From positions 40,078,890 to 40,142,889 of the forward strand of contig JAOANR010000001.1 in the NCBI GenBank assembly GCA_030278955.1: a stretch of DNA of 64,000 bases. Direction: 5' to 3'. A program made the translations under genes and the position numbers. Of the stretch, positions 29,491-63,653 are shown in pieces. Numbering within the stretch: position 1 is the first letter of the stretch; every line of letters starts with the position of its first letter. The notes below the pieces were generated by a model. The model worked only from the letters and a program-made list of their open reading frames with translations. It searched no databases and had not been told where the DNA came from. The stretch is from Hygrophila difformis (taxonomy: Eukaryota > Streptophyta > Magnoliopsida > Lamiales > Acanthaceae).

Positions 29491-29493
29491 AGT

Positions 29494-41547: not shown

Positions 41548-44500
41548 TGAAGCTTTGAGGTAAAACCCGCTGCAATGCCCCCGACAGCCTTTACACTATA
41601 ATCCTATAGGACTGTTAAAGAGCTTGCCTAATTTTTCCTACCGAAAGCGCACGGTATCAAGCTGCAATATTTATTTTTATTGTCGGGATCGTTCATTAGA
41701 GAGTTACACGATAGAAGCGTTTTAATAGGATTATTAGTTCTAGAACCTGTATCTTCTCTTGGTTTAAGGATGGTGTAATGATGACTACTAAGAATTTAAT
41801 GCTAAAATGTAAATGCATAAAGCTGTAAACGGTAATAAAGAAAACAATTGAAATGATGTCGAGTGTTGTGATTATGTTCATGAGTTTAAAATAATACGGA
41901 CCAAATCAAATAAACGAAATAAGAATATGATGAGAGTATCATACTTCAATGGTTAAAACAAAATGAAAGTTCATTGAGACAGACAAATCCTTTATGCAAC
42001 TTAATCAAATCTTCATGTCTTAAATCACTTCCCAAGACAGGTACTTGTGATTCAGTGTCATGACATTCTAAGCACTGAAATCATAGGATACCGTCATCGC
42101 AGAATGATCGGTCATACTCATTCTGTGACAAAAGCTTTTTAGAACTGTCACTTAATCTATTTCTTTCGGACTCAGATTAAGCCTTTGACAACTCAAGGTC
42201 ACTTCTAAATCATCTTATATTCATCTAAACTTGAAGTTGTTCTTTTTATTACTCTGAATCAAACTGATCTCATGACCCTATGTTGGATGTCCTCTACAAG
42301 AAGTGAAAAAAACAAGTATTTAAATCTATCATCCAATGTTTTCATAAGACTTGTATCCTCAGAGTAATTCCTTCAAGTATTTGTAAGAAGTAATAGTCCT
42401 GTAAGTATATCAAGATGAAATTGCTATTCAAAATCCTTGACTTATCCAGACCACTCAGATTCATATAGATGCTTTAGCTTGAGAAATCTCTGTAAACAAT
42501 TCCAAATACCCATGATTTAACTCAGGATTAGTAGGACTATAGAAAGAATACTTAATCTCCTACCCATAGCATATAGTGGAACTATAAAGCTATGAACCCT
42601 GGAAATTAATCTTCCTAAGACTCCACTAATTATTAGGACAAAAGATGGTTTTTGAAACACCTTTCCCTTTTAAATGACAGGTACTAAATGCCCAACTAAA
42701 GAACAAGTTTGTTCTTCATTAACCTGAGTAAATAATGATTGAGAAAACTTATATCATCATCTTCCTCAATGTACTAATGAAAATAGTAATATGAAACTAC
42801 AGATATGAATTATGAGTCTGTAATTATGAAGTAAGATCACTCATCATGAACCGAGAAATATCCCAAAATATTATGTGTATAGGTAGTATTATATGTATAA
42901 AGAAACGATGAGGGTTCTGAATCCTCTTAATCAAAATGATAGAGTGTTTCCAAAATATACACTGGAAAATAGACAGAATTAGGAAATCACTTTCCTATGA
43001 AAAAGATTTAAGAAATAATTCTGCAAAATAGGTGTCCAAACTAGCTCGCAGTAACTACTTTGGGTTTCAAACTATGAACATTCCAATTTTCCGCACACTA
43101 TGTCTGTACAGCGTGGAGGGAGTTAATATTCAAAGAATGTTCCTCAGATTTTGTTTATACAAAGAACTAAATGCCTCGCAGTAATTTCTGTAAGAATGCG
43201 GCGAGGTATCCAATTCCTACTTATAAGATAGGGGTTATATATGTATAAGAAGTAGAAGTGAGTAGTTGATGCCCCAAGAAATGGATATCAATTCTGATGC
43301 TATTATAAGTTGATTCTCTCGCTTTGTCGAAATGACATCGCGAGAGTATTGAAATAGCCTCTCTTAAAACACAGTTATCTGGATATATCCTCGCATCATC
43401 TTTTAGGATGAAGCGTGGCTTTATCCTTATGCGAAGTAAATGATCAAGTCTTATAACTGTCATAACTACCCTCTGGAATTTCTGTTCAGGAAATAATGAG
43501 TACAGAACCGCTCACATCCAAATTCGTAAACTTAGAGTTGTTAATTCTTAAAGATTATCATGCGATGATTAACACTGCATGGGTCTTTAGGAACCTTTTG
43601 GAGTTCTGAACATTAATCTCTGTGATTTCTCCCGAATTTGTGATCAAGACATAATATCAACAGAAAATCGATTGAATTCACAATTCTGCCAGTTCATACC
43701 TAACTCGGTTACAATATTCAAACTTCTTGTGTAATTAGAACGAACAAATTACGAATTTAAGATATGAAAGTATTATGATCTTCGAGAATCAAATTATCGA
43801 TGTGATGCAAATTCCAAAAAGTGAACATTGTAGTTGAGGTTTATACTTCTCTGAAACAGAATTGAGAAATGAAAATTGAAACCAGAAAGATAAGAAATGC
43901 ACGATTTGATAACCGATCATTCTTCATGTATCTTGAATAGCAAAGAATTAAAAATGAATACACCTGGAAATCTGATTACAATCAGAATAATGCAAAGGTG
44001 AGCGAAGAAGTCGGAAGTTAGATGGTGATCGTCGTGATGGATGAACAAGCATTCCGTTAGCAATTCTTCTTCCAGGGTATCCTCAAACTAATCTACTAAA
44101 AATATTCTGAAGAAAATCTACTGCGAAATTGAATTACAAATCTGAAGAACTTAAGTAAATTGCAGTGAAACGTAAACCCTAGCTAACCTACCTACTGAAT
44201 TCTAAAAGTGAACTGGAGAATAAAATTGAGCTATTCTCTTCAATCTCCCGCTACTTGAGCTGATCCCCCAAGGGTCTTATTTATAGATGGGCATTGTAAC
44301 TACTTCAGCCTTGGATGATAACCGCTCGCATCAGAATAGCTCTCCTCTAGCTTTGTCCAGTTCCTTCAAAGCGAGAGTCAGAAATGTAATTATCTTTCTT
44401 GACAAGGCGAGATCTCACAGTTTCTTCAAAGAGTTTGCTTCTCGCCATAATATCTAAAGCTTCCTGTCTTGCACAGACTTTCTTTCCTCGCGATGTCAAA

Positions 44501-44870
44501 CAATCATCGCGTGGACTTCAGCGTCTGAACATTTTCCTCAGATCTTTTCCTGATTTCGTATGTAAGTCCTCGCACCATTCCTTCTCTTTCCTCGCTATGT
44601 CTTTTTCCATCTTCTGCTGCTTTCCAGCTTAACTTCCTGCTAAATGACAAAGCGTGAGTCAGTTCAAACATAGCGTGCGAGACTTGCAATGAAAACTTAG
44701 AATTTCAAGCCATTTTCAGTGTAATTCCAACTTCTTCACAATCTTAGTTCTTCTTCCATCTTTTCTGATCTTCCATGATTATTCATTAAAAACTAATGGA
44801 ATTAAGAACAAAAGATCATCATTAAGACACTAAATTGGACGCAAATGATAGTCATAAAAGACTGTCATCA
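41548..44870 (-). repeat. 3' LTR of element 2 (3,323 bp)
   Basis: The plus strand runs TGAAGCTTTGAGG...GACTGTCATCA. A TATA box (minus strand TATAAATA) is at 44278-44285. Upstream U3 (44325-44690) carries CGCTTTGT, AAAGCGAG and CGCGATG motifs. The short minus-strand frame at 43221-43463 recurs in the other LTR and is not thought to be a gene. Confidence 0.95.
44325..44690. repeat. AAAGCGAG / CGCTTTG motif array in U3 of element 2
   Basis: Copies include TTCAAAGCGAGAG, GACAAGGCGAGA, CCTCGCGATGTCA, CATCGCGTGG, CCTCGCTATGTC, GACAAAGCGTGAG and ATAGCGTGCGAG. The same block is at 63108-63465. Matching motifs lie in the internal promoter 53930-54205, and single copies upstream of F-box genes C and D. 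Confidence 0.75.
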
Positions 44871-44887
44871 CCATCCTCACATTTAGA
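44871..44887 (-). other. Polypurine tract of element 2
   Basis: The minus strand reads TCTAAATGTGAGGATGG, directly followed by the LTR start TGATGACAGTC. It is not a pure purine run, but the position is fixed by the LTR border. Variants of this sequence recur inside elements 1 and 2. Confidence 0.75.
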
Positions 44888-45148
44888 AACACTTGTCCTC
44901 AAGTGGTATGAAACTTGTAAAGTTTCAAAGAGTAAGTCCAATTAGTGGCTCCCAGGATTTAGATGTTCATGTAAGATTCTCCTGGATCACTACCTTCTCT
45001 TTTCCAACTATCTCAAGCTCAACTCTTTCAACTGATTGATGCTTCATACCTAACTTCAAATTCACCAGATTTCATGAAAACATTAACAAAAGTGATTTGC
45101 ATTTATGTGAATTATTGTTCTGCTCCTTAGTTAGTCAGATTTCTCTTC

Positions 45149-45643
45149 TCACGCACAATCCTGTCCTTCTATATTATTTCTTTCAACAATCTGAGCCTGT
45201 TGAAGATCAGTGATCGGTTTAGTTGACCCTTGTTCATCAGGTTGATGTTCATCGATACATGCTCTCCAGCCTTCCGGATCTATATTTTCCACTTCCAAAT
45301 TACTATAAGGAGTGAGTTCCAACCTCTCTGTATAGGGGACTATCCCTAAAGTTGGTTTGACTTTTTCTTCCTCAGAGCTGGTATCATGTACCACATACTT
45401 AGGCTTCCTAGCCTTCATCTTTATTCTGAACTTCTTAACAGGTTTTTCAGGTTCTTTTTCTTGTTGCTTTTCTTTCTCAGGAGTGATTCCCAATTGTTCT
45501 ACATTCTCAAGAGAAGACCCTTGCTGCTTAAGTTCTTCAGGATTAGTCTCCTTCTGCTCAGAAGGTAACTTTCCTCTCCTCTTGTAAGTAACAACTTCTT
45601 TCTTTTCTTGAGCTGATTGTAAAATCTCAATATCTTCATCCAT
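45149..45643 (-). CDS. Unknown 164-aa charged protein (accessory ORF 2 of element 2)
   Basis: I do not recognise it. It is highly charged: Lys/Glu-rich repeats (EKEKQQEKEPEKPVKKF), a basic patch (KFRIKMKARKPKYVV) that could be a nuclear signal, then a more structured end (SNLEVENIDPEGWRACIDE). Its ATG overlaps the stop of the 584-aa ORF as TAATG (45641-45645). That arrangement is known to permit termination-reinitiation in some retroelements such as the LINE SART1. It could also be the C-terminal part of ORF 1 split by a frameshift. It ends about 260 nt before the polypurine tract. Confidence 0.6.
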   Translation of the reverse strand: MDEDIEILQSAQEKKEVVTYKRRGKLPSEQKETNPEELKQQGSSLENVEQLGITPEKEKQQEKEPEKPVKKFRIKMKARKPKYVVHDTSSEEEKVKPTLGIVPYTERLELTPYSNLEVENIDPEGWRACIDEHQPDEQGSTKPITDLQQAQIVERNNIEGQDCA

Positions 45644-47397
45644 TAAATCCCTTGCTTTTGGAACTTCAAGTCCAGAATTTCTTTGGCTGCTAGCTCATAT
45701 TCATTCTTCCTCTTCTTTGGAATTCGGCTAGTTTTCTCAGACTTGCTCGTCTCCACCTTTCTCTCAGTCCTTTTCTTAGCTGATGGTACTTCTTCTGAAG
45801 TGCCTGAACTAAGATTGTGTGACTTTCTCTTCCTGGTGGATACTTTCTTTTTACCTTTCTTATCTTGAGTTTCCATGAGTTCCTCCCATTCACGGTTTGC
45901 CTTTTGTCTGTTTGCATAATAATAATCCATGCTTTCTTGCAGAATCGGATGGAGTTCATCATTTCCTTCTTTCCTTTCTCCTACAATAGTTGTGACTTCA
46001 TCTACTACTCTCATTTTCTCAATTCTTTGTTCATCATCTGTGTTGTCTTCATCTGAATCATGCTTCTTGACATAAAAATTTTTGCCCATTCCTTTCAACA
46101 TGACGTTCATTCCCTTTCTATTCAGATATTTCTCATTCCATGCATCCCAATCATCAATGATTACCTGCTGAATTCTTCCTTGTGTTTGATCAGTATAGGG
46201 TCTATGCTCTTTGTATGCATTTTCTCTGCACATAGCATCATATCTGATATACTTCTCAATGAATTCTTTCTTTCTCTCCTGTACATATCCATGAACTTCC
46301 TGTTGGAGAGTTGGAGGTAATCTCTTCATGATCTTGTTAGGTCTGTCTGTAATGAGTAGATCTGCATCTGCTGATGTTATTGATGGGGCTGAAATTTTCC
46401 TGAAATTCGTTATAGGTTCCAGTCCTTCATTAACAACAGATTCTCTGAAAATGTTCCTTACTATATTTTGTGGTGTCTGTTTTGCATCTGATCTTTGTTT
46501 CCTGTTCTTCCCTGATCTCTCAGCTTCTCTCTCCTCTGCATCCTTAACCCATGCTTGCTGTTCTGGTATCAAATCAGCAAACTCTTCTAGTGGAAATTCC
46601 TCATTAGGTTTCCTTGTCAACCCTGGTTTAAGAATCCTTCTCTTCAGATTTAGTCCCTTAGCGCACTCATTCATATGTCTGATCCAGCTATTCCTAGCTT
46701 CCTGAATGGTTCTAAGGACATCTTTCCATACCATCTTGCCGTGTTTAGCTTTCTTGAAATGAGGCTCGAGGTCATGTCTCAAGTTGATTCGAGCATCAAT
46801 AATTCTATCCAGGGCCAAATTTGTCAAGAAATTCTTTTCAATGGGTCCCTTCTTATTCAAGAATGTTGGAGGCATGTATGCAGGGAGTGCCTGCTGAGCA
46901 TCATAGACTCTAGCATTTCGGATTTCTTGAAGTTTGCAGCAATGTTTGGTGAGTCGCTTCACATATTTAGGTAGTGGTTGAGGATCAAAGTAATCCAACT
47001 CCAGCCCTACTTGATCTTTTGGATTGATAATTCTGTAGCATTCCTGATTCCACTCAGCCATGCACTTCTTTTCCCTTTCCAAAAGTCTTTCAAGTCTGAT
47101 TTCATTAGGCAGATGTCTGTCATTGATGAGGAATATCATTTGGTCATCCCAAAATTTATTCATCTTATCCCAGAATGCTTCTTCTAAATCAATCATCAGC
47201 GATTCTTTTTCTTTATCTGGTATATGTTGAATCATGAATGGATTGACATAAAAGATCGGAGGTGAAATTTCCATCCCTGACCATCCACCGCTTTTCCGAA
47301 TAGTTTCCACCATTTTTGCTGTTTTCCTCATCGTCAAGAATGATTTCTCTTTCTTATCTGATTCTATACCTCGAGCTTGAAGTTCTTCATAGGTCAT
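45643..47397 (-). CDS. Unknown 584-aa hydrophilic protein (accessory ORF 1 of element 2)
   Basis: The first ATG of the main frame that fits is 47397 (MTYEELQARGIESDKKEK); upstream in-frame codons include a non-ATG start. The region just upstream (tttctttcttaag) resembles a splice acceptor, so a spliced leader is possible. There is no signal peptide, membrane span or enzyme motif that I recognise. The N-terminal two thirds look folded (AFWDKMNKFWDDQMIFLIND, LDRIIDARINLRHDLEPHFK). The C-terminus is a basic tail with several nuclear-signal-like clusters (KKGKKKVSTRKRK, SAKKRTERK, RIPKKRKNE). The lack of transmembrane segments argues against an Athila env-like protein. It is intact although gag-pol of the same element is broken. 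Confidence 0.7.
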   Translation of the reverse strand: MTYEELQARGIESDKKEKSFLTMRKTAKMVETIRKSGGWSGMEISPPIFYVNPFMIQHIPDKEKESLMIDLEEAFWDKMNKFWDDQMIFLINDRHLPNEIRLERLLEREKKCMAEWNQECYRIINPKDQVGLELDYFDPQPLPKYVKRLTKHCCKLQEIRNARVYDAQQALPAYMPPTFLNKKGPIEKNFLTNLALDRIIDARINLRHDLEPHFKKAKHGKMVWKDVLRTIQEARNSWIRHMNECAKGLNLKRRILKPGLTRKPNEEFPLEEFADLIPEQQAWVKDAEEREAERSGKNRKQRSDAKQTPQNIVRNIFRESVVNEGLEPITNFRKISAPSITSADADLLITDRPNKIMKRLPPTLQQEVHGYVQERKKEFIEKYIRYDAMCRENAYKEHRPYTDQTQGRIQQVIIDDWDAWNEKYLNRKGMNVMLKGMGKNFYVKKHDSDEDNTDDEQRIEKMRVVDEVTTIVGERKEGNDELHPILQESMDYYYANRQKANREWEELMETQDKKGKKKVSTRKRKSHNLSSGTSEEVPSAKKRTERKVETSKSEKTSRIPKKRKNEYELAAKEILDLKFQKQGI

Positions 47398-47452
47398 CTT
47401 ATGAATCCTTAAGAAAGAAATAAGAATAAACTGGTTAACTAGTGTCACCATA

Positions 47453-47583
47453 CTCACATTTAGAGCTTGACTCTAAATGTGCAGATGATAAAAGGAAACA
47501 TACTACCAGGTTTTCCTTTTTATATTCATCATTCTTTTCATGATATCTCCATACTCACATTTAGAGATTTGCTCTAAATGTGA
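47453..47583. repeat. Two PPT-like hairpins between the accessory ORFs and F-box gene A
   Basis: CTCACATTTAGAG/CTCTAAATGTG occurs at 47453-47465/47471-47481. CTCACATTTAGAG/CTCTAAATGTGA occurs at 47554-47566/47572-47583. On the minus strand both left arms read CTCTAAATGTGAGTATGG, one base from the true PPT CTAAATGTGAGGATGG; the first is also followed by TGACA, like the LTR start. 47584-47745 has no gene. Confidence 0.75.
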
Positions 47584-47745
47584 AGATTTCACTGCTGACT
47601 AAGTCTACTTATTGCAGAATAAAAATAACAGAGAACTTATAATCATAACATCATCAATCAAAAACAAAATATAGAATTCATCAGATTCTTGCTAATAATA
47701 TGGAATTACAAAGCATGGTGTTTCTTATGACATTCAATCTATCAA

Positions 47746-48493
47746 CTACAAATGAGGGGGCGTCTCTGCCTCAATTCCAAATCTGAGGAACAGATTACAG
47801 TGCTCAGAGACTAAGCACCTCATGCAGTAAATTGAGGTGACTCCATAAGTGTTCCTTGATGGGCCGTGATTATTATTATAATAGTTCCTAAGATTGCAAA
47901 GTCTCTTCTTAGGTTGTCCTTGAAAAGGTGAGATAAATTCCTCATAATTTGATAGCCACCCTCTGACTTGAAGCCGAAGATCCTTGAGCCTTCGTCTATT
48001 CTTACACAGAGTAGCAAAGAGCCAAATTCCCTTCTCTTGTTCTTCAACTTCATCCTTACTCAAAAGCATAAGAGCTTTTACATAAATGGATGGGGGGTGA
48101 TTATCAGTGATTGCAGGTTTTAAAAGCTCAAATGCTGCTTGTTCATTCTTAACTTGAACAAACAAACGCAGTGCCTCTTGTAGCTGGCATATCCAATTTC
48201 CTGCATTTCTGCAACTTTCAAGAAAAAATCTTTGTGTCTCTTCAAAAGTCCCCCATCCCCACGCAGAAAATTCTTCAAGAGAAGCTTTTTTCAAGACTAA
48301 AGGATGATGGGTAGCCTTTTCAAGCTCTTTGCAGACTAATTTACAGTTAAAGACAGTCTCAAGGTGATCAAATGCCAATCTCGATAGAATGTTTCCAAGA
48401 ATCTCATAAGGAAGATCTGTGATCTGAGTTTCCCCCGATCCAGATTTCTTTATTGAAGTCCTTGGTTGCTTTGAAGAGCTTCCAATTTCACAG
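47746..48493 (-). CDS. F-box gene A, second exon (At2g35280/At1g67623-like)
   Basis: The exon follows a clear acceptor (aatcctactcag). It is in phase with the 17-nt first exon at 50550-50566 (MAGNNP), giving 254 residues. It has the F-box LPYEILGNILSRLAFDHLETV, then helical repeats typical of this F-box family (FFLESCRNAGNW, AFELLKPAITDNHPPS, GIWLFATLCKNRR), and a Cys-rich end (RLCNLRNYY...YCMRCLV). F-box proteins bridge SKP1 to substrates in SCF ubiquitin ligases. Only about 150 nt separate it from gene B, leaving no room for its own promoter. It therefore depends on splicing from an upstream exon or is silent. It is closest to gene E and the relic at 50959. Confidence 0.75.
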
Positions 48494-48645: not shown

Positions 48646-49399
48646 CTAGTCTAATTCTAGCAATTCATCTTCATTCTGCTCTTCTTCTCCATTGTTCCAT
48701 TTCTCCCAATCAAATAATATGCCCAGTTCTCCAATTGCTCTTCTGTATTGCTTGACATAGTCAAACAATTCACATGTAACACACTCCATCCTTTCATTGA
48801 AGGTTAATTGCTGTCGCTTTTGAAGGGAGTGATTCTTACAAAAACTCCTTTCCTCTTGATCAGGGAATGGATTTGGGAACTTATCACCGTAAAGAAGCCA
48901 GTGCAGAACACTAATTTTAAGGAAAGCTAAATCGAAGGGATCCTGGGTTACAGATTCAATCAATTGAATTCCTTCCTCATCCAGTTGTGGGTCTTGTTTG
49001 GAAAGCAATAGAAGAGATCTTATGAAAACAGTTGGTTTGTGTTTATCATCTAATCTGGGCTTTAAGATTTCATAAGCTTTTTCTTCATTTTTATCATCCA
49101 CAAAGGCTATCAGTGCAGGCTCGATGATAAACATATGGTTGCCTACATCCTGACATTCTTTAATGAACTTGACCTGATTACTTGGGTAAACATTTCCTCT
49201 CCAAATAGCACAAGTTTCTAAATTAGCTCTCTTTAGAGCTAATGATGACCTGCTTGCTGAGAAGAACTGCTTAGATGCTTCAGATGCTCTAAAAAGTGTC
49301 TTTATGCTCTCCATTCCTAATCTCGACAGAATGTCTCCCAGTAACTCAGTTGGTAAATCAAATATTTGAGTTTCCAAGAGTTGAGGGATTTCGACATTT
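48646..49399 (-). CDS. F-box gene B, second exon
   Basis: Acceptor cttttcag precedes 49399. Joined to the exon at 50550-50566 the frame is kept (771 nt, 256 residues). F-box: IFDLPTELLGDILSRLGMES. Repeats: KFIKECQDVGNHMFIIEPAL, AYEILKPRLDDKHKP. Cys/His end: RSFCKNHSLQKRQQ...CVTCELFDYV, then a strongly acidic tail (NGEEEQNEDELLELD). It is most similar to gene D, including FGT/LET-QI before the F-box, so B and D look like a duplicate pair. The reading frame is open throughout. It lies in the same tandem as A and C, about 200 nt downstream of the C coding end. Confidence 0.75.
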
Positions 49400-49598: not shown

Positions 49599-50566
49599 TT
49601 ATTCATTAATGCTATGGTTATCAGAGTTCTCCTTTGCTGCCATCCTAAAATCAGCTATTGCTCTACTTATATCACAACAAAGATAGTTGATCTGATCTGC
49701 TCTATGATTAAAATATAATGGCCTATGAAAGTTTTCCAGATCATGATCATCAATAATGCAGAATTCCCTCTTTTTCTGTCCTAAGAAGGGATTCGGGACA
49801 TATTCCCATTCTGAGAGTAAAGTGAGAAGATCATTTCTAAAATCGTAGCTATTTAACCTATCATTTAATATAGGACTAATGAGATGAAGCCTTGCATCTA
49901 TTTCCTTTCTAGAAACTCGGCTTAAACAACATAAGGCTTTAAAATATTGAGAAAACTTGGAATTATCTTTATCCCTTCTTCCAGGATTTGAAACGCCTTG
50001 TATTCTTTACCCTGTGTGAACAGTTCCATAGCCTTATGTAGGTTCAGTATATGATTTTTAGCCTTTCTGCAGGAGTGTAGGAACTTGGCTTTTCAAGGAG
50101 ATTCATTAGAAATCCTTTTAAAAGCCGGATCCTCTACATTAAATCTCTGGAAAACAGTAGGGTAGTTTGAAACCATTTTGAATGTTGAACAAGTTCGTTT
50201 GCAATGGAGCAAATCTTCGAAGCTGCTCTGCCCTACTCGTGACAAAATCTCCCCAATGACGTCCAGTGGAAGATCAGTCAAGTGTAAAGCAGAGAACTCA
50301 GAAGCCTGCTCTTTACTGCTGTTTGAGCGAGTTTTAAAGAAGGAAAATCAGATGTTTGTATTAATGAAATTATACTTCAAAATTTCTACAATTTTAAGGA
50401 AAAATGTGAATGAATGAAGGGAGATTATGCGAAATGTAAAATATAAACCCTAGTATACTAGTCAAGCATTTAGATGCAGGATGCCGAAGAAAAATCTGAA
50501 GAATTGAAACACCAGGAAGAATGAAATGAAGTATGAATGGAAAGCTTACGGATTGTTGCCTGCCAT
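49599..50566 (-). pseudogene. F-box gene C, broken, with the shared first exon
   Basis: Exon 1 is 50550-50566 (ATG plus 14 nt, donor GTAAGC). Exon 2 starts at 50315 or 50318, because the acceptor is doubled (acagcag). The F-box LPLDVIGEILSRVGQSSFEDL is followed after 62 residues by an in-frame TGA just before KAKFLHSCRKAKNHIL. A frameshift follows in the repeat region near 49985. The other frame then continues to the family-type end (NPFLGQKKREFCII...NYLCCDISRAIADFR) with TAA at 49599-49601. Exons total 734 nt, not a multiple of three, confirming the shift. A TATA-like GTTATA (50711-50716) and an ACAAAGCGAGG motif (50903-50913) lie upstream. Confidence 0.8.
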
Positions 50567-50958: not shown

Positions 50959-51260
50959 CTAGTTAGATTTTTTTTTTTTATCAGACTCTAAATCCAATTC
51001 ATCTTCATACTTATCAAAAGCTACCCTCAATTCCTTCATTAAGGTTACCAATCCTTTCCTTTCATTCCTTGAATATACTCCTCTTTCAGCCTAAAGGATG
51101 TTTAGAAGCCTCATTCAACATTTTGCAATTGATGGTTAAACGCCAAGCTTAAGAGATTTTCTCAAGAATCTCATAGTGAAGTGCTGTGATCTGAGTTTCC
51201 CCTGATCCAGACTCCTTTGATAACATTTTTGGTTTCATGAGGAGCTTCCAGTTTCATCAC
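50959..51260 (-). pseudogene. F-box relic with its middle deleted
   Basis: The 5' part (51140-51260) follows an acceptor-like AACTAG. It is nucleotide-similar to the start of gene A exon 2: GGAAGCTC, TCTGGATC, GGGGAAACTCAGATCACAG. The 3' part (50959-51110) encodes a family-type C-terminus read as LVTLMKELRVAFDKYEDELD, like gene E. The F-box repeats between them are gone, and stops are present in the first part. It shows that the cluster once held at least six copies. Confidence 0.7.
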
Positions 51261-51442: not shown

Positions 51443-52549
51443 TCAAGGATTAACAATTTCCTCATCATCAGAATCAGTCCACAGAAATTCATCAGGGAAC
51501 ACCTCACCACAATATAATCTGAATTGCCTTACCATGTCAAAGAATTGACAAGGAATACAGTCCATCCTAATATGTGGTGGTAACAAGGCCCGTTCCTGCA
51601 ATGTATGAGTCTTACAATAACTTCTCTCTTCTCGGCCTTGAAAAGGGTTTGGGATTCTTGGAATATGGATTAACCAATGAAAAAGGTAGAGTTTAATGAA
51701 AACAACCTCTAAAACATTTGAAGCTGCTGTTTTGATCAACTCTAAACCTGCTTCATTTAGCTTGTCATCTTGTTTTGTTAAGAGAAGCATTGTTCTGAGC
51801 AGAATGGTGGGTTGATGTTCATCGTCTAGTCCTGACTTAAGGAGTTCAAAGGCTTTCTTCTCATCCCGTTCATCAACAAATGCTATCAATGCAGGTTCGA
51901 TATTGAACATAAAGTTCCCTGCATTTTGGCATTCTTGAATGAATCTTTTCTGATTATCAGGATAGACATCTTCCCTCCACCTCATACATGATTCCAGGTT
52001 TGCTCTCTTGAACACAAGATGAGTTTTGCTCGCTTGATAGAATATTGGAGAGACTTCTGCTACCCTAAAGAGTTCCCTTACATTGTCTTTTCCAGGTCTT
52101 GACAAAATATCTCCCAGCAACTCAGTGGGTAAATGAGATATCTGAGTTCCAAAGAGTTGTGGATTCCTAGCATTTCTGTTTCCAGAAAAGAATACAATAA
52201 GGAATACAAAAGCGAACTTTTATCTAAAATGGTGGAACTAACAATTCGAAAATGGGATTTCATTTCTATTGCGAAGCTCCAATAGTCTCATATAGACAAT
52301 GCATCAGTTACAAACTATAGATTTCAGAAGAAACTCTCCAAATTAATCATTGTTTAAATGAGTTTAAAGAAACGGCTTTCAGTTATGAGAAATCTAAATG
52401 TTTAGTTTTTCCGATTTCTAAAGCCAAAATGAACTTTATCGAAAATTCAGAATCATGAACCCTAGGTCTAAAAGCGTAATCCGGGGACAAACATTCAAGA
52501 ATGTGAAAGATAGGATAAACTAGATTGCTTACGGATTGTTCTCAGCCAT
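51443..52549 (-). CDS. F-box gene D, two exons
   Basis: Exon 1 is 52533-52549 (MAENNP, donor GTAAGC); exon 2 is 51443-52175 after acceptor aaacag. The 357-nt GT-AG intron splits a codon, and the joined frame is 750 nt (249 residues). F-box: ISHLPTELLGDILSRPGKDN, with Pro where the others have Leu. Repeats: RFIQECQNAGNFMFNIEPAL, AFELLKSGLDDEHQP. The end has YCKTHTLQERALL...CIPCQFFDMVRQF and an acidic tail (DSDDEEIVNP). A TATA-like CTATAT is at 52702-52707 and an AAAGCGAGG copy at 52879. It is an intact candidate SCF substrate receptor encoded by a retrotransposon. Confidence 0.85.
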
Positions 52550-52960: not shown

Positions 52961-53701
52961 TTAATTTGAATCTGAATCAGTTTCTAATTCTGACTCAGAT
53001 TCAATTACATGTTCACTGAAATCTTCTCTTAATTCTCTAATCAAACTAGTAACCTCACAACACAAACAATCAATGTTTGTGGCACCATAATTATAGTGTG
53101 GAGGTTCCCTAACTAAGTCCCTACTGTGTGGCGCTATGTAATCACAGTAATAGCGATGCCCTTGTCCCCGAAAAGGATTAGGCTCTTCTTCACTGTCGAT
53201 AAACACCCTGCTGATCTTCTCCTTAATCTTGTGGATATGTTCTCCCTCTTTAAGGATTGATCCAAGCAGATACAATCCTTCATCAATCTCTTCAAGGCTC
53301 TCTGAACTCAGAAGAATGAAAGCCTTGATGAAGATTGAAGGGTGGTGATTATCTTCAATTCCAGGCTTGAGGATTTCAAAAGCGGCTTCCATGAGCCCTG
53401 TGTTGCAGAAAACCGAGAGTGCAGGTTCAAGTTTGAGCATGAAGTTCCCTGCCTCTCTGCATCTTTGCATTATCTGAGTGTAGTGAGCATCAAGCGTTCT
53501 TTCCGCAGTGATTCGCCTCACTACATTTGCTCTCCTCCATACTACAGGCGCCTTACTTGCTCTAAAGAACTTCTTGCAAGTTGGAGCTGCTCTGGCTACA
53601 TCCTTCATCTCTTCCTTTCCCAGTCTTGAAAGAATGTCTCCTAAAATTTCGTCAGGAATATCTGCAATAGAGGTTCTAGCATTGGGAGCTGCTGTGGCCA
53701 T
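52961..53701 (-). CDS. F-box gene E, intronless
   Basis: It starts at ATG 53701 (MATAAPNARTSIADIP). The longer frame from 53812 is rejected because a TATA box (53782-53789) lies inside it. 246 residues: F-box IADIPDEILGDILSRLGKEEMKDV, repeats (QRCREAGNFMLKLEPALSVF, AFEILKPGIEDNHHPS, GLYLLGSILKEGE), then the conserved end NPFRGQGHRYYC...NIDCLCCEVTSLIREL and an acidic tail (ESESELETDSDSN). Where gene D has its intron, between MAENNP and NARN, E reads APNAR without interruption, so the intron was lost exactly. It is the gene nearest to the internal promoter array (53930-54205). Confidence 0.9.
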   Translation of the reverse strand: MATAAPNARTSIADIPDEILGDILSRLGKEEMKDVARAAPTCKKFFRASKAPVVWRRANVVRRITAERTLDAHYTQIMQRCREAGNFMLKLEPALSVFCNTGLMEAAFEILKPGIEDNHHPSIFIKAFILLSSESLEEIDEGLYLLGSILKEGEHIHKIKEKISRVFIDSEEEPNPFRGQGHRYYCDYIAPHSRDLVREPPHYNYGATNIDCLCCEVTSLIRELREDFSEHVIESESELETDSDSN

Positions 53702-53781
53702 TCTAATTTCTAATAATGGTTGTAGGATAATTGTTCTAATGTGGGAATGTTTGAGATGAAAGGAGAGAAAGATTCGACTAG

Positions 53782-53789
53782 ATTTTATA
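53782..53789 (-). promoter_or_regulatory. TATA box of F-box gene E
   Basis: TATAAAAT on the minus strand, about 80 nt upstream of the ATG at 53701. Confidence 0.7.
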
Positions 53790-53929
53790 GCAGAAAAACT
53801 AAATTCTGCCATAATTACAAGCGGTTGAAACGACGTGTGATGGTTAGCGTAAGGGAAAAAGAAGGTCTGAATAAGGGGTATTTTGGTCTTAAGAAGTTTG
53901 AAAATCTATCCGTTCAATATTCCCAGGCT

Positions 53930-54205
53930 CTCGCTTTGTCAATTGTCATCGCGTGGTTATAGAAACCGTCTCTCGCTTTGTAAATTACAAAGCGAGGAAA
54001 GATTCTTGCACAACTTTCAGAGAAAATGGTCACGCTTTGTATCTCGACAAAGCGTAAACATAAAACTCTTATTATTTAAAAACATATCAGATTTCATAAA
54101 ATGAGAATTTGAACTGATCACCTCGCTTTATAACTTTTACAAAGCGTGAGTGAGAGTAGTTCTTTTTAAATCACGCTTTGTCAAAGTTAACAAGAGCGTG
54201 GCCTC
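53930..54205. repeat. CTCGCTTTGT / ACAAAGCGAG array in the internal promoter of element 2
   Basis: There are at least four inverted pairs. CTCGCTTTGT (53972-53981) and ACAAAGCGAG (53987-53996) are perfect around AAATT. CGCTTTGT (54033-54040) and ACAAAGCG (54047-54054) follow, then pairs at 54121-54150 and 54172-54200. The LTR U3 of the same element carries the same motifs. The array sits between the end of pol and the TATA box of gene E. Confidence 0.85.
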
Positions 54206-54436: not shown

Positions 54437-55839
54437 CTAAGGGTTATCCAAATATTCAGTTTGGATATTTAAATCTTGTTGACCAATATATTCTTTTAGC
54501 CTGTGTCCATTTACAGTCTTTTCTCCTTCACTGAGCATGATTGTGACTGCTCCGTTGTCATGAACAGCTACAATGGGGAATGGTCCTGTCCACCTTGATC
54601 TGAGCTTACCTGGAAATAGTTTCAAACGAGAATTATAAAGCAAAACCAATTGACCAACAGAAAATTCCTTATGTTTAATTTTTGAATCATGAATTTTCTT
54701 GGTTCGATCTTTATAAATCTTGATGCTTTCATATGTTTCCAGTCTCATCTCTTCCAACTTAGACAGATCAAACTTCCTCTTGTCTTGTCCTGACTGAAGA
54801 TCCATGTTGAGCATCTTAATGGCCCAATATGCTCTATGTTCTAGCTCAACTGGAAGATGGCAAGCTTTTCCAAAAACTAATCTGTAGGGAGACATTCCTA
54901 TAGGAGTCTTAAAAGCAGTTCTGTATGCCCATAAAGCATCATCTCCAGCTTCTTTGACCAGTCTTTTCTTGTAATATTCACAGAAGCTTGTAAGATATGC
55001 TTGATTTCCTTATTAGATACCTCCACCTGTCCACTTGTCTGAGGATGATATGGTGATCCAACTTTATGATGAACACCATACTGTTTCAGCAACTTCTCAA
55101 AGAGTTTATTTACAAAGTGAGATCCTCCGTCAGATATTATGGCACGAGGGGCTCCAAACCTGGTAAAAATATTCTTTTGCAGAAATTTAGTAACTTGTTT
55201 AGCTTCGTTATTGGGTAAGGCTACTGCTTCTACCCATTTTGAGACATAATCAACAGCCACTAGAATGTAGTGATTACCAAATGATGGGGGAAAAGGTCCC
55301 ATAAAATCAATTCCCCACACATCAAATATCTCTACTTCTAAAATTCCTTTTTGAGGCATTTCTTCTCTCATTGAAATGTTTCCCAATCTTTGGCATCTGT
55401 CACACATCTTTATAAGTTTCTGGCAATCCAAAAAGATAGTTGGCCAGTAAAAGCCACAGTCTAGAACTTTTCTAGCAGTTCTAGCAGGACCATGATGGCC
55501 TCCTAGAGGATTCTCATGACACTTTCTAACAATTTGAAAACCTTCCTTTTCATGAACACAGCGTCTAATAACCTGATCAGAACAAAACTTAAATAAAAAG
55601 GGATCATCCCAATAGTATTTCTGAATTTCTCTGAAAAATCTTGACTTCTGATGAGAGTCTTTAAACTTTGGAACAATCTTGCAAGCTAGATAATTAGCAA
55701 AATCTGAAAACCAAGGGCAATCAAATTGATGCAACTGCAAAGAATACAACTGTTCATCTGGAAATTTATCATTTACAACTTCCTCCTTCTCTGTTTTCTC
55801 CTCCAATCTAGAAAGATGATCTGCTACTCCATTATCTTT
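54437..55839 (-). pseudogene. Element 2 pol: integrase, frameshifted
   Basis: The stretch 54898-55806 has the zinc finger (HENPLGGHHG...CDRCQRLG) and the catalytic core ([32 protein letters not shown]). A frameshift near 54900 moves the end ([34 protein letters not shown]) into 54437-54895. It is separated from RNase H by a TGA after DRK at 55840-55842. All catalytic residues are present, but no single product can be made. Homologous to 4532-5870 of element 1. Confidence 0.9.
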
Positions 55840-56535
55840 TCATTTTCTGTCTTTAATAATAATGTCAAACTCTTGTAAAAGTAAAACCCATCTTATCAGC
55901 ATAGGTTTGGCTTCTTGCTTTGAGAAGAGATATCTTAATGCAGTATGATCTGTGTAAACTATATTTTGAGCTCCAATAAGATACTGTCTGAACTTGTCAA
56001 AAGCAAAAACTACAGCATACATTTCCTTTTCTATAGTAGTGTAGTTTATCTGAGCATCATTAAGAGTATGGCTAGCATAATAGATAACATGATGTTTGCC
56101 TTCTTTATGTTGCCCCAAAACTGCTCCTACTGCATTCTCACTTCCATCACACATAAGTTCAAAAGGTAGACTCCAATCAGGAGACTGAACTATAGGTGCA
56201 GTGATTAGTTTCTCCTTCAAGGTCTTAAAAGCAGTCAAGCAATCTTCTTCAAAGCTAAATGTCACATCCTTATGAAGAAGATTACATAAAGGTCTTGCTA
56301 TTTTAGAGAAGTTAAACCTTCTATAAAAACCAGCATGACCAAGAAAACTCCTTACTGCCTTAATCGTTTTGGGTGGCGGTAGATTTGCTATCACTGAAAC
56401 CTTAGCCTTATCTACTTCTATTCCTGCTCTAGATACTTTATGTCCTAGGACAATTTCTTCCTGAACCATGAAATGACACTTTTCCCAGTTAAGAACCAGG
56501 TTAGTGTCCTCACATCTCTGCAAAATTTTTGACAA
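55840..56535 (-). pseudogene. Element 2 pol: RT thumb and RNase H
   Basis: It reads [28 protein letters not shown] (missing two or three residues compared with element 1), [14 protein letters not shown] and [17 protein letters not shown]. It is out of frame with the preceding RT part and ends at TGA 55840-55842. The first codon of the open stretch is not ATG, so it is a fragment and not an independent gene. Confidence 0.85.
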
Positions 56536-57077
56536 ACTTCAAAGTCAGTTCCATGAACAGTAAAATCATCCATAAACACTTCAATTCATTTTTCAATAAA
56601 ATCAGAGAAAATACTCATCATGCATCTTTGAAAAGTAGCAGGAGCATTACATAATCCAAAAGGCATTCTTCTATAAGCAAATGTTCCATATGGGCAAGTA
56701 AAAGTTGTCTTTTCATGATCTTCACTAGCAATAACTATTTGATTATAACCAGAATAACCATCTAAGAAGCTGTAAAATGGTTTACCTGACAGTCTTTCTA
56801 ACATTTGATCAATAAAAGGTAAGGGAAAATGATCTTTTCTTGTGGCAGTGTTTAATTTTCTATAATCAATGCAAACTCTCCAACCAGTTACTGGTCTTGT
56901 TGCCACTTCATCACCATGTTCATTAGTCACAATGCAAATCCCACCCTTTTTGGGTACAACTTGTGTTGGACTTACCCATTTACTATCAGAAATAGGATAG
57001 ATTATACCTGCATCAAGTAGCTTGATTACCTCCTTCTTGACAACTTCCTGCATTGGTGGATTTAGCCTCCTTTGTGG
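56536..57077 (-). pseudogene. Element 2 pol: RT catalytic region with stops
   Basis: It reads KEVIKLLDAGIIYPI, VCIDYRKLN, FLDGYSGYNQI and MPFGLCNAPATFQRCM. Then comes TGA at 56586-56588 after FIEK, just before the catalytic FMDDF box, and a frameshift near 56535. It is preceded by TAA at 57078-57080. The catalytic box is thus cut off from the fingers. Confidence 0.9.
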
Positions 57078-58637
57078 TTATCTGGATGGTTTGTATTCAT
57101 CTTCCATCAGGATCCTATGCATACAAATGTGTGGACTGATGCCTTTGATATCTACTATAGTCCAAGCAATTGCCTGAATATGATTTTTAAGAGTACCTAC
57201 TAGAGCTTGTTCTTGTTCTTCACTCAATTTGGATGAAATTATTACCGGAAGCTTCTTTTTGTCTGCCAAAAAGGCATACTTAAGATGTTCTGGTAATACT
57301 TTAAGTTCAAGCTCAGGTGGGTTTTCTATTGATGGAATTAATTTGCTTCGAGTTTGCACTTCCATCTTTAAATCAGATCCTTCTTTAGAAAGATCTGTTT
57401 TATCAATGTCATCCTCAGATTGTTCAGAAGATGACATATCCTCACTTTCTGATCCATCCTTGATTTCACCAGTCTCAGGATCAGCGAATCTGACCGCACA
57501 CAAGTAAGCAAAAGTAGCATCTTCAGCATTTGTGAGTGGGGTGAGATTGTTCTCAATTACATCAGTGGTAAAGAGATTATAGTAATCAAAAAGATTTCCC
57601 CCCTCCATAGTACTAGAATCTAATCCCTTTCCCGCTACATTGGTTTCAAAAGCATTAAAAGGATATGTTGACATCTTCATCATGTCGAAAGTAACTTCCT
57701 GGTCATCAACATGAAGTTTTACTATGCCATTCTTTGCATCAATCATGGCTCCCGCAGTCACCAGGAAAGGCCTTCCTAATATGGTAGGAATCCTGACATT
57801 TTCATCGATATCAAGAATGACAAAGTCAGCTGGAAAACAAAGGCCTCCTGTCTTGACTAAAACATCTTCAATGATCCCTTCTGGTCTGGTGCTCGATTGG
57901 TCAGCAAAGAAGAGAGTCATATTAACTGGCCTCATCTTCCCCAAGTCCAAACGTCTAGCCATAGCAAGTGGCATTACATTGATGCTGCTTCCTAAGTCAC
58001 AGAGCCCTCGCCCAGCTTCTTTACAGTTGATAATCAGGGGTAAAGTAAAACTCCCTGGATCTTCAAGCTTTGGAGGAATCCTTTGTTGAAGAACCAAGCT
58101 ACAATTCTGATTTAAGACCACCATTTGCTGCTCTCCTGCACTTCGTTTACCTGAAATCAATTCTTTCAGAAACTTAGCGTAAGTGGGCATTTCAGCAATT
58201 AATTCAACCAAAGGGATTGATATTTCAATGGCCTTAATCTTTTCAAGAAATTTCTTAAATTTAATTTCTTGAAGATCATTTTTGAGTCTCCCAGGATATG
58301 GTATCCTGGGCATGTGTTCATCCAGTGAATCCTTTTTGTTACCTGTAGAGTTAGGATTATCATTACCTCCCTCTGTTTCCTTTGGAAAGGAGTGTCCTAA
58401 GACATTCTTTTCCAAACCCTTATCCTCAAGTATCTGTCTTTGTTCAAGCTGATCATCTTCTTCCATCGTCTGAACATCCTTGAACTTTTTCTGCTGCAGC
58501 AACCTATCTCTTTTCTTTTCAAATTCAGGATCAACAACCTCTTTTCCTCCCCTCAATGTAACTGCCTTACATTGTGGATTTGTTTCAGAAGAACTTGGTA
58601 ATTTTCCTTTTTCTCTCTGCTGTATTAATTTGGCCAT
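57078..58637 (-). pseudogene. Element 2 pol: linker, protease and RT entry
   Basis: This is a 519-codon open stretch. The linker motif NPQCKAVTLRGGK is at residues 20-32. The retropepsin (GRGLCDLGSSINVMPLAMA, PADFVILDIDEN, TILGRPFLVTAGAMID) has an intact D-L-G-S site. An acidic spacer follows, then LPEHLKYAFLADKKKLP, ending in TAA after EYKPSR where element 1 continues with QPQRR. It is in another frame than gag, so a shift or loss lies at the 58640 junction. Confidence 0.85.
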
Positions 58638-58642
58638 CTCTG

Positions 58643-60057
58643 TTAATTTTCAACATTCTTGATTGAAGCCTGCAGTTGGTTATTCGTCTCTGTCTGCTTA
58701 ACAATAAACTCCTTCAGAGCATTCACCACCTTTAAAGAATAAGTATTATCCTGAACAACAGGATAAGGTTGCTGTGGAAAAATTGCAGGGACTGGTGCAA
58801 ACTGTCCATATGGTCTATTCTGTTGATTCATCTGTTGAGGAGATCTCTGAGGGTACATTTGCTGCTGTGGATAAAATGGTTGTTGAGGACGAAATTGCTG
58901 CTGATTTTGTTGAGGTGGATTCAAAAGATGTGCATTCTGTGCGTTCTGAGTATTACCATAGCTCAGATTCGGATGTTTGTTCTGGAATCCAGTGTAATTA
59001 CAGCTCTCATCCTGCTTTGGTGTTTCCTGGAGTTGTGGGCACTGATCATTGTGATGTGGCCCTGAGCATATTCCGCACTGATAAACTGATTCCATTGGAA
59101 CAGGTTGAAGGATCATCACTGGTTGTTGTTGATGTTGATGTTGAACTTGTTGACTTGTTTGCTGAGCTAGCTGTAACTCAGCAATCTGTTTAGTGAGTGC
59201 TGCAAATTTCTCTTCATTTTTGTCTGTGTGGATGACAAGACTCTTTCTTGTAGGAGATGGTGGGTCATCATCTTGGAGGACTGCTCTGCTAGCTGTCATG
59301 GTGTCTATTGTTGACCACGCTCTGTCAAGTGGCATCTGAAATAATTGTTCCCCTCCACTGGCATTAATCATCATATGCCAGGTGTGAGTGAGTCCGGTGA
59401 AAAAGATCTTTAAAAGTCTTCTTTCTGTGATACCATGCTGCGGGCATCTCTTAAGCATATCAAAGAATCTGTCTCGAGCATCCTTCAAAGATTCTCCTTT
59501 TCTCATCTTGAAGCTAGAAATCTTATCTACCCATTCATCTACTTTACTTTCTGGAAAATATTTGAGCAAGAAGTTTCTGACTAGTTCTGGCCAAGTAGCC
59601 TTCTGTTGAGCATTTAATGAATCATACCATTCTTTCGCAGAGCCATCCAGAGAGAATGGAAACATTGCTAGTTGAATGGTTTCCCTTGAGGCTCTTCCCT
59701 TCTTCACTGTCTTACTCAGTTCGACAAACTTTTTGAGATGTAAGTGTGGATCTTCAGCACTCAGCCCATAAAAAGCTCTGGAAGATGCCAAGTTTAATAT
59801 ACCAGTGGTATATCAACCTCTTCATCCGTTCCAGCTAGATACTGATCAACGTTTGGTTGCCATGGTTGATATTGTTCTTCTTGAGGATTTGGAGCAGGAT
59901 TAGCAAAATTTGGTGGAAAGTAGTGCTGATGAACGAATTGTGGTGCAGCAGCCCTCTGTGGTGCTTGAAAATGTCCTCGAAGTGGTACATTTTGCTGATT
60001 GTCAGGTTGTCCATTTGGTAAGTTTCCAGGTCCGTCATTTTGTCCATTGTTAACCAT
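58643..60057 (-). pseudogene. Element 2 gag, frameshifted
   Basis: The N-terminal stretch 59794-60057 is Asn/Gln/Pro-rich. A frameshift with TAA near 59793 separates it from the capsid part (58643-59791): MFPFSLDGSAKEWYDSL, KYFPESKVDEWVDKI, LKRCPQHGITERRLLKIFF, the zinc knuckle CGICSGPHHNDQC (C-x2-C-x3-H-x4-C), and a Gln-rich stretch before the linker. The region 60058-60324 between gag start and primer-binding site is leader. Confidence 0.85.
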
Positions 60058-60324: not shown

Positions 60325-60342
60325 TCCCCGGCAACGGCGCCA
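60325..60342 (-). other. Primer-binding site, tRNA-Asp type (element 2)
   Basis: TCCCCGGCAACGGCGCCA on the plus strand, identical to that of element 1, directly inside the 5' LTR. Confidence 0.95.
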
Positions 60343-63300
60343 TGAAGCTTTGAGGTAAAACCCGCTGCAATGCCCCCCGACAGCCTTTACACTATAATCC
60401 TATAGGACTGTTAAAGAGCTTGCCTAATTTTTCCTACCGAAAGCGCACGGTATCAAGCTGCAATATTTATTTTTATTGTCGGGATCGTTCATTAGAGAGT
60501 TACACGATAGAAGCGTTTTAATAGGATTATTAGTTCTAGAACCTGTATCTGCTCTTGGTTTAAGGATGGTGTAATGATGACTACTAAGAATTTAATGCTA
60601 AAATGTAAATGCATAAAGCTGTAAACGGTAATAAAGAAAACAATTGAAATGGTGTCGAGTGTTGTGATTATGTTCATGAGTTTAAAATAATACGGACCAA
60701 ATCAAATAAACGAAATAAGAATATGATGAAAGTATCATACTTCAATGGTTAAAACAAAATGAAAGTTCATTGAGACAGACAAATCCTTTATGCAACTTAA
60801 TCAAATCTTCATGTCTTAAATTACTTCCCAAGACAGGTACTTGTGATTCAGTGTCATGACATTCTAAGCACTGAAATCATAGGATACCGTCATCGCAGAA
60901 TGATCGGTCAGACTCATTCTGTGACAAAAGCTTTTTAGAACTGTCACTTAATCTATTTCTTTCGGACTCAGATTAAGCCTTTGACAACTCAAGGTCACTT
61001 CTAAATCATCTTATATTCATCTAAACTTGAAGTTGTTCTTTTTATTACTCTGAATCAAACTGATCTCATGACCCTATGTTGGATGTCCTCTACAAGAAGT
61101 GAAAAAAACAAGTATTTAAATCTATCATCCAATGTTTTCATAAGACTTGTATCCTCATAGTAATTCCTTCAAGTATTTGTAAGAAGTAATAGTCCTGTAA
61201 GTATATCAAGATGAAATTGCTATTCAAAATCCTTGACTTATCCAGACCACTCAGATTCATATAGATGCTTTAGCTTGAGAAATCTCTGTAAACAATTCCA
61301 AATACCCATGATTTAACTCAGGATTAGTAGGACTGTAGAAAGAATACTTAATCTCCTACCCATAGCATATAGTGGAACTATAAAGCTATGAACCCTGGAA
61401 ATTAATCTTCCTAAGACTCCACTAATTATTAGGACAAAAGATGGTTTTTGAAACACCTTTCCCTTTTAAACGACAGGTACTAAATGCCCAACTAAAGAAC
61501 AAGTTTGTTCTTCATTAACCTGAGTAAATAATGATTGAGAAAACTTATATCATCATCTTCCTCAATGTACTAATGAAAATAGTAATATGAAACTACAGAT
61601 ATGAATTATGAGTCTGTAATTATGAAGTAAGATCACTCATCATGAACCGAGAAATATCCCAAAATATTATATGTATAGGTAGTATTATATGTATAAAGAA
61701 ACGATGATGGTTCTGAATCCTCTTAATCAAAATGATAGAGTGTTTCCAAAATATACACTGGAAACTAGACAGAATTAGGAAATCACTTTCCTATGAAAAA
61801 GATTTAAGAAATAATTCTGCAAAATAGGTGTCCAAACTAGCTCGCAGTAACTACTTTGGGTTTCAAACTATGAACATTCCAATTTTCCGCACACTATGTC
61901 TGTACAGCGTGGAGGGAGTTAATATTCAAAGAATGTTCCTCAGATTTTGTTTATACAAAGAACTAAATGCCTCGCAGTAATTTCTGTAAGAAATTACTAC
62001 TTATAAGATAGGGGTTATATATGTATAAGAAGTAGAAGTGAGTAGTTGATGCCCCAAGAAATGGGTATCAATTCTGATGCTATTATAAGTTGATTCTCTC
62101 GCTTTGTCGAAATGACATCGCGAGAGTATTGAAATAGCCTCTCTTAAAACACAGTTATCTGGATATATCCTCGCATCATCTTTTAGGATGAAGCGTGGCT
62201 TTATCCTTATGCGAAGTAAATGATCAAGTCTTATAACTGTCATAACTACCCTCTGGAATTTCTGTTCAGGAAAAATAATGAGTACAGAACCGCTCACATC
62301 CAAATTCGTAAACTTAGAGTTGTTAATTCTTAAACATTATCATGCGATGATTAACACTGCATGGGTCTTTAGGAACCTTTTGGAGTTCTGAACATTAATC
62401 TCTGTGATTTCTCCCGAATTTGTGATCAAGACATAATATCAACAGAAAATCGATTGAATTCACAATTCTGCCAGTTCATTCCTAACTCGGTTACAATATT
62501 CAAACTTCTTGTGTAATTAGAACGAACAAATTACGAATTTAAGATATGAAAGTATTATGATCTTCGAGAATCAAATTATCGATGTGATGCAAATTCCAAA
62601 AAGTGAACATTGTAGTTGAGGTTTATACTTCTCTGAAACAGAATTGAGAAATGAAAATTGAAACCAGAAAGATAAGAAATGCACGATTTGATAACCGATC
62701 ATTCATCATGTATCTTGAATAGCAAAGAATTATTAAAAATGAATACACCTGGAAATCTGATTACAATCAGAATAATGCAAAGGTGAGCGAAGAAGTCGGA
62801 AGTTAGATGGTGATCGTCGTGATGGATGAACAAGCATTCCGTTAGCAATTCTTCTTCCAGGGTATCCTCAAACTAATCTACTAAAAATATTCTGAAGAAA
62901 ATCTACTGCGAAATTGAATTACAAATCTGAAGAACTTAAGTAAATTGCAGTGAAACGTAAACCCTAGCTAACCTACCTACTGAATTCTAAAAGTGAACTG
63001 GAGAATAAAATTGAGCTATTCTCTTCAATCTCCCGCTACTTGAGCTGATCCCCCAAGGGTCTTATTTATAGATGGGCGTTGTAACTACTTCAGCCTTGGA
63101 TGATAACCGCTCGCATCAGAATAGCTCTCCTCTAGCTTTGTCCAGTTCCTTCAAAGCGAGAGTCAGAAATGTAATTATCTTTCTTGACAAGGCGAGATCT
63201 CACAGTTTCTTCAAAGAGTTTGCTTCTCGTCATAATATCTAAAGCTTCCTGTCTTGCACAGACTTTCTTTCCTCGCGATGTCAAACAATCATCGCGTGGA

Positions 63301-63653
63301 CTTCAGCGTCTGAACATTTTCCTTAGATCTTTTCCTGATTTCGTATGTAAGTCCTCGCACCATTCCCTCTTTCCTCGCTATGTCTTTTTCCATCTTCTGC
63401 TGCTTTCCAGCTTAACTTCCTGCTAAATGACAAAGCGTGAGTCAGTTCAAACATAGCGTGCGAGACTTGCAATGAAAACTTAGAATTTCAAGCCATTTTC
63501 AGTGTAATTCCAACTTCTTCACAATCTTAGTTCTTCTTCCATCTTTTCTGATCTTCCATGATTATTCATTAAAAACTAATGGAATTAAGAACAAAAGATC
63601 ATCATTAAGACACTAAATTGGACGCAAATGATAGTCATAAAAGACTGTCATCA
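60343..63653 (-). repeat. 5' LTR of element 2 (3,311 bp)
   Basis: It is nearly identical to 41548-44870; the main difference is a short deletion near 61990 and a few small indels. The TATA box is at 63063-63070 and the U3 motif array at 63108-63465. R-U5 would be about 2.7 kb of noncoding RNA leader. Confidence 0.95.

Follow-up and report, generated by a model that had tools for sequence, protein, structure and literature searches.

Can genes of a host-like family that lie inside a long terminal repeat (LTR) retrotransposon belong to that retrotransposon, and if so, what would they do for it? We asked this of a 64,000-nucleotide stretch of the Hygrophila difformis genome (the window; contig C1:40078890-40142889, with positions below counted within the window), in which a 22.1-kb Ty3/Athila-like element (41548-63653, minus strand, 5′ end at 63653) carries an array of F-box genes. 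The analysis covered one genome only, of 915 Mb in 246 contigs. Results showed that the array is a fixed part of a high-copy Athila-like family and moves with the element, beyond what chance would give. We consider it fairly probable that the encoded proteins act as receptors of SKP1-cullin-F-box (SCF) ubiquitin ligases and have a host protein that restrains the element degraded, to the element's advantage.

The limits of the element are clear. Its 5′ LTR (3311 bp, 60343-63653, minus) and 3′ LTR (3323 bp, 41548-44870, minus) are 98.7% identical over 3329 aligned columns, with 19 mismatches in 3305 compared bases and a Kimura two-parameter distance (K2P) of 0.0058, and the whole is framed by the 5-bp target-site duplication (TSD) ATCGG, found at 63654-63658 on the 5′ side and at 41543-41547 on the 3′ side. 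Directly after the 5′ LTR stands a primer binding site, TGGCGCCGTTGCCGGGG (60326-60342, minus), so that paired LTRs, TSD and primer site of an LTR retrotransposon are all present. This site would fit tRNA-Asp, and we presume an insertion age of roughly 0.2-0.4 million years from the K2P distance with substitution rates from the literature. The gag gene (58643-59791, minus; PF03732, E-value 4.9e-17) is followed by the pol region (54437-58637, minus; PF00078, PF17917, PF00665 and PF17921) with reverse transcriptase (RT; 56589-57053), RNase H (55843-56535) and integrase (54898-55806); pol is broken into several open reading frames (ORFs) in the window copy. The insertion interrupts a copia-type RNase H frame, and this frame is restored when the flanks are joined by script with one TSD kept. 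Matching LTRs, the ATCGG duplication, gag-pol and a copia frame continuous without the element had all been claimed in an initial annotation of this DNA, and the LTR alignment, the flanks, the Pfam matches and the joined flanks bear these claims out.

The region between pol and the last ORF holds six F-box loci, all on the element strand; as first annotated, open frames are present in A, B, D and E, C is broken and the sixth is a relic. Gene A (52961-53701, minus) is a single exon that starts MATAAPNART, in a frame open up to 53812 (PF12937 at 9.7e-08 and PF23310 at 1.5e-05 on the ORF 52961-53812). Gene B has a leader exon (52533-52549, minus; read from the sequence as M A E N N P, with the donor GTAAGC at 52532-52527) and a second exon (51443-52175, minus; acceptor ending in GGAAACAG; PF23310, 8.9e-07). 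The relic of an E-type exon follows (51065-51235, minus; tblastn with E, 2.6e-06), and then gene C, with its own leader exon (50550-50566, minus; likewise read as M A G N N P, donor GTAAGC) and a second exon (49599-50318, minus) that holds one stop and one frameshift in the window copy and is open in another copy, L040. Gene D (48646-49399, minus; PF23310, 2.1e-06) and gene E (47746-48493, minus; PF23310, 1.7e-12; PF00646, 3.8e-05) each begin after an acceptor, ending in TTTTCAG and in CCTACTCAG, respectively. Against the curated F-box cut-offs, E passes PF00646 (23.9 vs 20.5) and A passes PF12937 (32.1 vs 24.3), D is under both (19.3, 19.9), and B, scanned from an internal start, gave no F-box match. 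For the TPR_27 domain PF23310 (cut-off 27 bits), B (29.0), D (27.8) and E (47.4) pass and A (25.0) is just under. The paralogues are 23-34% identical to one another, except B and D at 49-50%. When the genome was searched with the F-box Pfam model, the best 150 places listed were all other F-box places, the array not being among them.

Is the array present wherever the element is? A genome search with the LTR listed 41 matches (40 scored of 1994 candidates). All 11 LTR pairs for which both LTRs were fetched carry their own 5-bp TSD, with K2P of 0.0058-0.0149; in two of the 11, one terminal LTR base is changed and the TSD was taken beside it, and the count leaves aside the pairs on contigs C6 and C2 (42.4 Mb) and a triplet on C11 (9.4 Mb), whose LTRs were not both fetched. 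At least one F-box gene accompanies 9 of the 11 pairs, the remaining two, on C1 (54.1 Mb) and C9 (41.7 Mb), lying outside the stretches read. The 9.3 kb adjoining the 3′ LTR was read in five other insertions on other chromosomes, and genes C, D and E occur there in the same order and strand in 5/5. Gene B is visible in L040, the other four stretches stopping short of it, and gene A is at its expected place in four of the five, the fifth (on C4) not being among the best 150 of 6209 candidates for A.

The spacing of the genes tells the same story across the genome. First-look searches gave 6392 candidates for gene E and 6209 for gene A, numbers of candidates and not of counted copies, and the best 150 of each were scored. 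Of the 150 A places listed, 68 are followed on their own strand by a listed E within 0-12 kb, and in 60 of these cases the distance is 4.9-5.3 kb; as controls, a listed E upstream of A and a listed E on the opposite strand were each found 0 times in 150. For ORF3, which follows E, 34 of 73 listed places have a listed E at a fixed offset before it, and in an even sample of 10 from the other 39 an E, in some cases damaged, stands at that offset in 10/10. The pattern of a leader exon plus donor occurs exactly 529 times genome-wide (a whole count; reversed control 0), and on contigs C1 and C2, for which the list of matches is complete, such a leader precedes 41 of 46 listed E-type copies by 2.1-4.8 kb in the same orientation. 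Nearly all of the best 150 TPR_27 matches in the genome are likewise E-type copies, as judged by open frame and profile span. An identical score of 50.8 bits in dozens of these 150 suggests that one E subfamily multiplied in a recent burst. The claim of the initial annotation that the cluster moves with the element is thus supported by the five insertions, the 11 TSDs, the A-E-ORF3 spacing and the 529 leader patterns. It had also named copies of this LTR family without F-box genes as an observation that would speak against the claim; the copies read all had C, D and E, and this check did not refute it.

How could these genes be expressed from the middle of an element? B, C, D and E have no in-frame ATG inside the ORF itself. 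The leader exons of B and C are each 17 nt long (the ATG, five codons and two bases), end at GTAAGC, and are matched in phase by the acceptors before the two F-box exons, so that the introns of B and C are flanked by splice sites in the orientation of the element. D and E, too, are preceded by acceptors in this phase, and for them no leader exon of their own was seen in the sequence. The donor GT of C and the acceptor AG of C, D and E are kept in 6/6 copies, the acceptor of C being displaced by three bases in L041. B and C would be translated from mRNAs that join the short ATG leader to the F-box exon, and D and E would probably share one leader exon as alternative last exons. All six insertions retain the introns of C, which are in the orientation of the genomic RNA, so that reverse transcription must usually work on an unspliced RNA, an arrangement that would be like that of retrovirus accessory genes. 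In gene A the codon for P is the point at which B and C are split, and A has no intron exactly there; 147 of the 150 listed A places (best 150 of 6209 candidates) cross this junction intron-free. Gene A thus looks like an exact intron loss through spliced RNA at some past time.

We then looked for selection, by counts of the ratio of nonsynonymous to synonymous differences per site (pN/pS), the IQ-TREE codon runs having given no usable omega. Over 861 pairs of 42 E copies spread down the list, pN/pS was 0.148, a ratio biased low as the list is ranked by protein score; the distance bins of this sample end at pS 0.3, with 208 of the 861 pairs above. E copies chosen independently of E gave 0.241 (six chosen by LTR, window included), 0.210 (ten chosen by ORF3) and 0.217 together, two of them, L088 and L091, covering 706 and 507 of the 738 nt. 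In these 16 copies the ratio declines with distance, from 0.79 (pS < 0.03, 4 pairs) to about 0.2 (0.20-0.24), as expected if copies decay neutrally once inserted while constraint acts between generations. Shifted-frame controls gave 1.39 and 1.42 in the 42 copies and 1.13 and 1.18 in the 16. The F-box part was the lowest of the parts of E compared (0.088 in 42 copies, 0.128 in 16), and residues 67-80 gave 1.18 in the 16 copies, on few sites. Moreover, the 42 copies fall into two equal groups of 21, between which the net pN/pS is 0.126. For comparison, the six LTR-chosen copies gave 0.30 for ORF3 and 0.49 for ORF4. The case for purifying selection between copies is therefore strong for E; such selection shows that E matters to what is copied and does not show what E does.

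The association also seems to be old. A second, diverged Athila-like element lies in the same window (1548-10690, minus, running past the window start), with primer site at 10670-10690, gag at 8737-9861, pol at 4547-8721 and an F-box gene at 1548-2223; a repeat search of the first 16 kb of the window found no LTR pair for it. Compared with the main element it is 40% identical in gag, 87-90% in RT and 60-66% in integrase, and its primer site is of the same kind. Its F-box/TPR gene stands after pol in the same orientation, is 32-42% identical to A and D over two pieces, contains one stop and follows an acceptor whose phase is that of the main array. Because both elements have an F-box gene after pol, its presence there is probably older than their divergence into two families, barring two separate gains.

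What would such proteins do? From its domain, the F-box would bind SKP1 and so give an SCF ligase, to which the strong constraint on the F-box part of E also points; TPR_27 and the C-terminal part would hold the protein to be degraded, and the element would gain by the loss of a host factor that restrains it. Selection between copies would be most simply explained by the removal of such a factor. A silencing factor as the target, the direction in which the initial annotation had also pointed, is our tentative first guess, made by analogy, with a host factor of another kind or proteins of the element itself as alternatives; it is plausible because viral and host F-box proteins act on AGO1 and because VANC is an anti-silencing protein encoded by a transposon. 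A fuller version, in which the array serves as an accessory bank where a shared start exon would be spliced to alternative F-box exons, the SCF ligase turned on the silencing machinery and different genes kept for different or evolving targets, strikes us as doubtful.

Several points weigh against this explanation. Splicing, translation and SKP1 binding are predictions from sequence and domain. The support from stop-free frames, seen in 135 of the 150 listed E and 128 of the 150 listed A (best 150 of 6392 and 6209), is tempered by the ranking of these lists by protein score, which favours intact copies; among the six copies read, D is open in 1/6, C in 1/6 and E in 3/6. The case for selection is weak for D (0.46) and absent for C (0.80, partly counted in a shifted frame) among these six, and thin for B, whose 0.09 comes from a single pair. 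Purifying selection is also unable to separate a benefit to the element from a benefit to the host. The AlphaFold model of E, built on a six-row alignment, was poor and unusable (mean predicted local distance difference test score 52.1), and searches did not help: Foldseek with this model gave no PDB match at E-value ≤ 0.001, a profile search against PDB sequences yielded no convincing match (best E-value 0.045), none of 523 candidates in a wider protein database reached E-value ≤ 0.001, and the searches made found no host parent gene of the array.

Among the rival explanations, the one that survives best is that the F-box proteins are useful to the element in another way than against silencing, acting through SCF on its own Gag, its integrase, the product of its last ORF, the cell cycle or competing copies. 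The data point to no particular target, and array paralogues only 23-49% identical would permit different ones; we regard this as rather unlikely. Passenger capture, by which host F-box genes were taken up once by chance and have been copied since without use, would fit the F-box genes broken in individual copies and the little constraint on C and D among the copies read, and host-gene capture by plant LTR elements is known (maize Bs1; PMC13317346). Set against it are the pN/pS values of E: among copies picked by other criteria the ratio is 0.20-0.24 once distances are larger, the net value between the two subfamilies is 0.126, and shifted frames give 1.1-1.4. A ratio of 0.79 is seen only in the four closest pairs, as expected if decay starts after insertion; we therefore hold passenger capture improbable. 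That a host gene cluster was broken by unrelated LTRs, or that the assembly is at fault, with the F-box genes outside the element, has next to no probability: the 3′ end of the window copy and its outer flank are duplicated about 62 kb away at 98.7%, so that the region was rearranged after insertion, but the empty site is clean, TSDs are their own in 11/11 LTR pairs, the same array stands in 5/5 insertions on other chromosomes and the spacing of A, E and ORF3 is fixed genome-wide, and we rejected chance inclusion, separate LTR insertions and assembly artefact alike.

To place the family, we compared the element with known lineages. Integrase lies downstream of RT and RNase H, which is the Ty3/gypsy (Metaviridae) order. 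A single RNase H stretch was matched in the scanned pol ORFs, the gaps between split frames being outside the scan; a second, archaeal-type RNase H marks the Tat lineage (PMC6317226). Remains of the last ORF, known from the ORF list and from other copies, occupy 45149-47457 (minus) as frames of 604 and 164 aa, between the F-box array and the 3′ LTR. The initial annotation had put the array between pol and the 3′ LTR, and this position holds, with the amendment that the ORF at 47457-45149 intervenes and that about 3.3 kb near it is gone from the window copy (kept in 4/5 other copies read). The missing half of this ORF weakly matches PF20167 in other copies, below the curated cut-off. The Athila ORF-1 domain PF03078 had no match among the scanned ORFs, a domain present in only 16% of Athila elements (PMC6317226). 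The layout and, if it is of the tRNA-Asp type, the primer site would fit the Athila type named in the initial annotation.

Compared with Athila, Calypso and Diaspora (PMC6317226, PMC1142308), the element shares the Ty3 gag-pol order, its length and an extra ORF between pol and the 3′ LTR, and, with a primer site that would fit tRNA-Asp, probably also a primer of the type used by non-chromoviruses, tRNA-Asp among them (PMC6317226). In those elements the extra ORF is envelope-like or Athila ORF-1, whereas here an intron-bearing F-box array precedes the last ORF. Retand, with its antisense TRP28, and Grande (PMC11963269, PMC7264820) also have extra genes between pol and the 3′ LTR that are kept in most copies, and for Grande a gene with its own promoter is cited, as known from a reference-list title (PMC7264820); in Retand the ORFs are mostly antisense and include TRP28, while here several sense F-box genes are found (PMC11963269, PMC7264820). 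An orchid Ty3 family with an m6A (N6-methyladenosine) demethylase domain similarly has a host-type domain fixed in it, and the screen of 121 angiosperm genomes that reported it lists 15 extra domains (PMC9289625); it differs in having a single AlkB-like domain, and no F-box is named in the main text of that paper.

Host-gene-like sequence within an LTR element is also known from maize Bs1, where it consists of fragments without full-length ORFs, whereas here several full-length genes occur in very many copies, one of them under selection (PMC13317346). The nearest precedent is the F-box 'LTR-gene' TaChr6G576 of Thlaspi arvense (PMC8764390), tied to an LTR element and tandemly duplicated, yet one gene from the host side and not a fixed array in a high-copy family. 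As models of function, VANC of the VANDAL DNA transposons (PMC5735166, PMC10398659) is a transposon accessory protein that opposes host silencing, though of another element class and another protein, so that anti-silencing here would be by analogy; and polerovirus P0 and host FBW2, both acting on AGO1 (PMC6593998, PMC2914764), are F-box proteins affecting a silencing protein, as those of the array might be. The word 'F-box' occurs 0 times in the main texts of PMC13317346, PMC7264820, PMC11963269, PMC6317226 and PMC9289625, and no retrotransposon with an F-box array was found in the open-licence literature searched. The initial statement that none with a multi-gene F-box array has been described thus stands, with the single F-box 'LTR-gene' of Thlaspi arvense as its caveat (PMC8764390).

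Other features of the window and of the genome complete the picture. The stretch L011 (C1:40056842-40063165) duplicates window 40044-46372, the 3′ end and outer flank of the element, about 62 kb apart at 98.7%, so that either the segment was copied after insertion or two haplotypes may have been assembled side by side. The motif CTAGAGCnnnGCTCTAAATGTGAGGATG, which is partly a hairpin, occurs on the minus strand twice at about 47460-47620 before ORF3, in a shorter form at 44871-44900 just before the 3′ LTR and at 2240-2280 before the F-box gene of the second element; it may be a repeated 3′ cis-element. Upstream of gene A (53930-54180, minus) are several inverted CTCGCTTTGT...ACAAAGCGAG motifs, present in the LTRs as well, and the two strands of the window together hold 12 copies of the 8-mer ACAAAGCG, seven of them at 53932-54174. 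Between the copies of a 2605-bp direct repeat of 99.4% identity (26890-29494 and 35513-38117) lie RNase H and integrase matches (33026-34612, plus), the whole being probably another young Ty3 element. At 38448-40547 (minus) are ORFs from the extra gene region of a further element, one of which weakly matches PF20167 (Transposase_32). Among the best 150 F-box places of the genome, many ordinary F-box genes come in pairs of equal score, the two members sharing a contig at a distance of 70-450 kb; such pairs may reflect segmental duplication or haplotypes left unmerged in the assembly.

Some plant LTR elements are known to have one extra ORF or domain, though how they profit from such genes is for the most part little understood. 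In the present family, which is large and recently active, a multi-gene array with splice sites is a fixed component, and one of its genes is under purifying selection. It makes directly testable whether plant retrotransposons encode ubiquitin-ligase receptors of their own, and against what these would be directed. If F-box genes in this genome are counted by domain, the total could, moreover, include large numbers of element copies.

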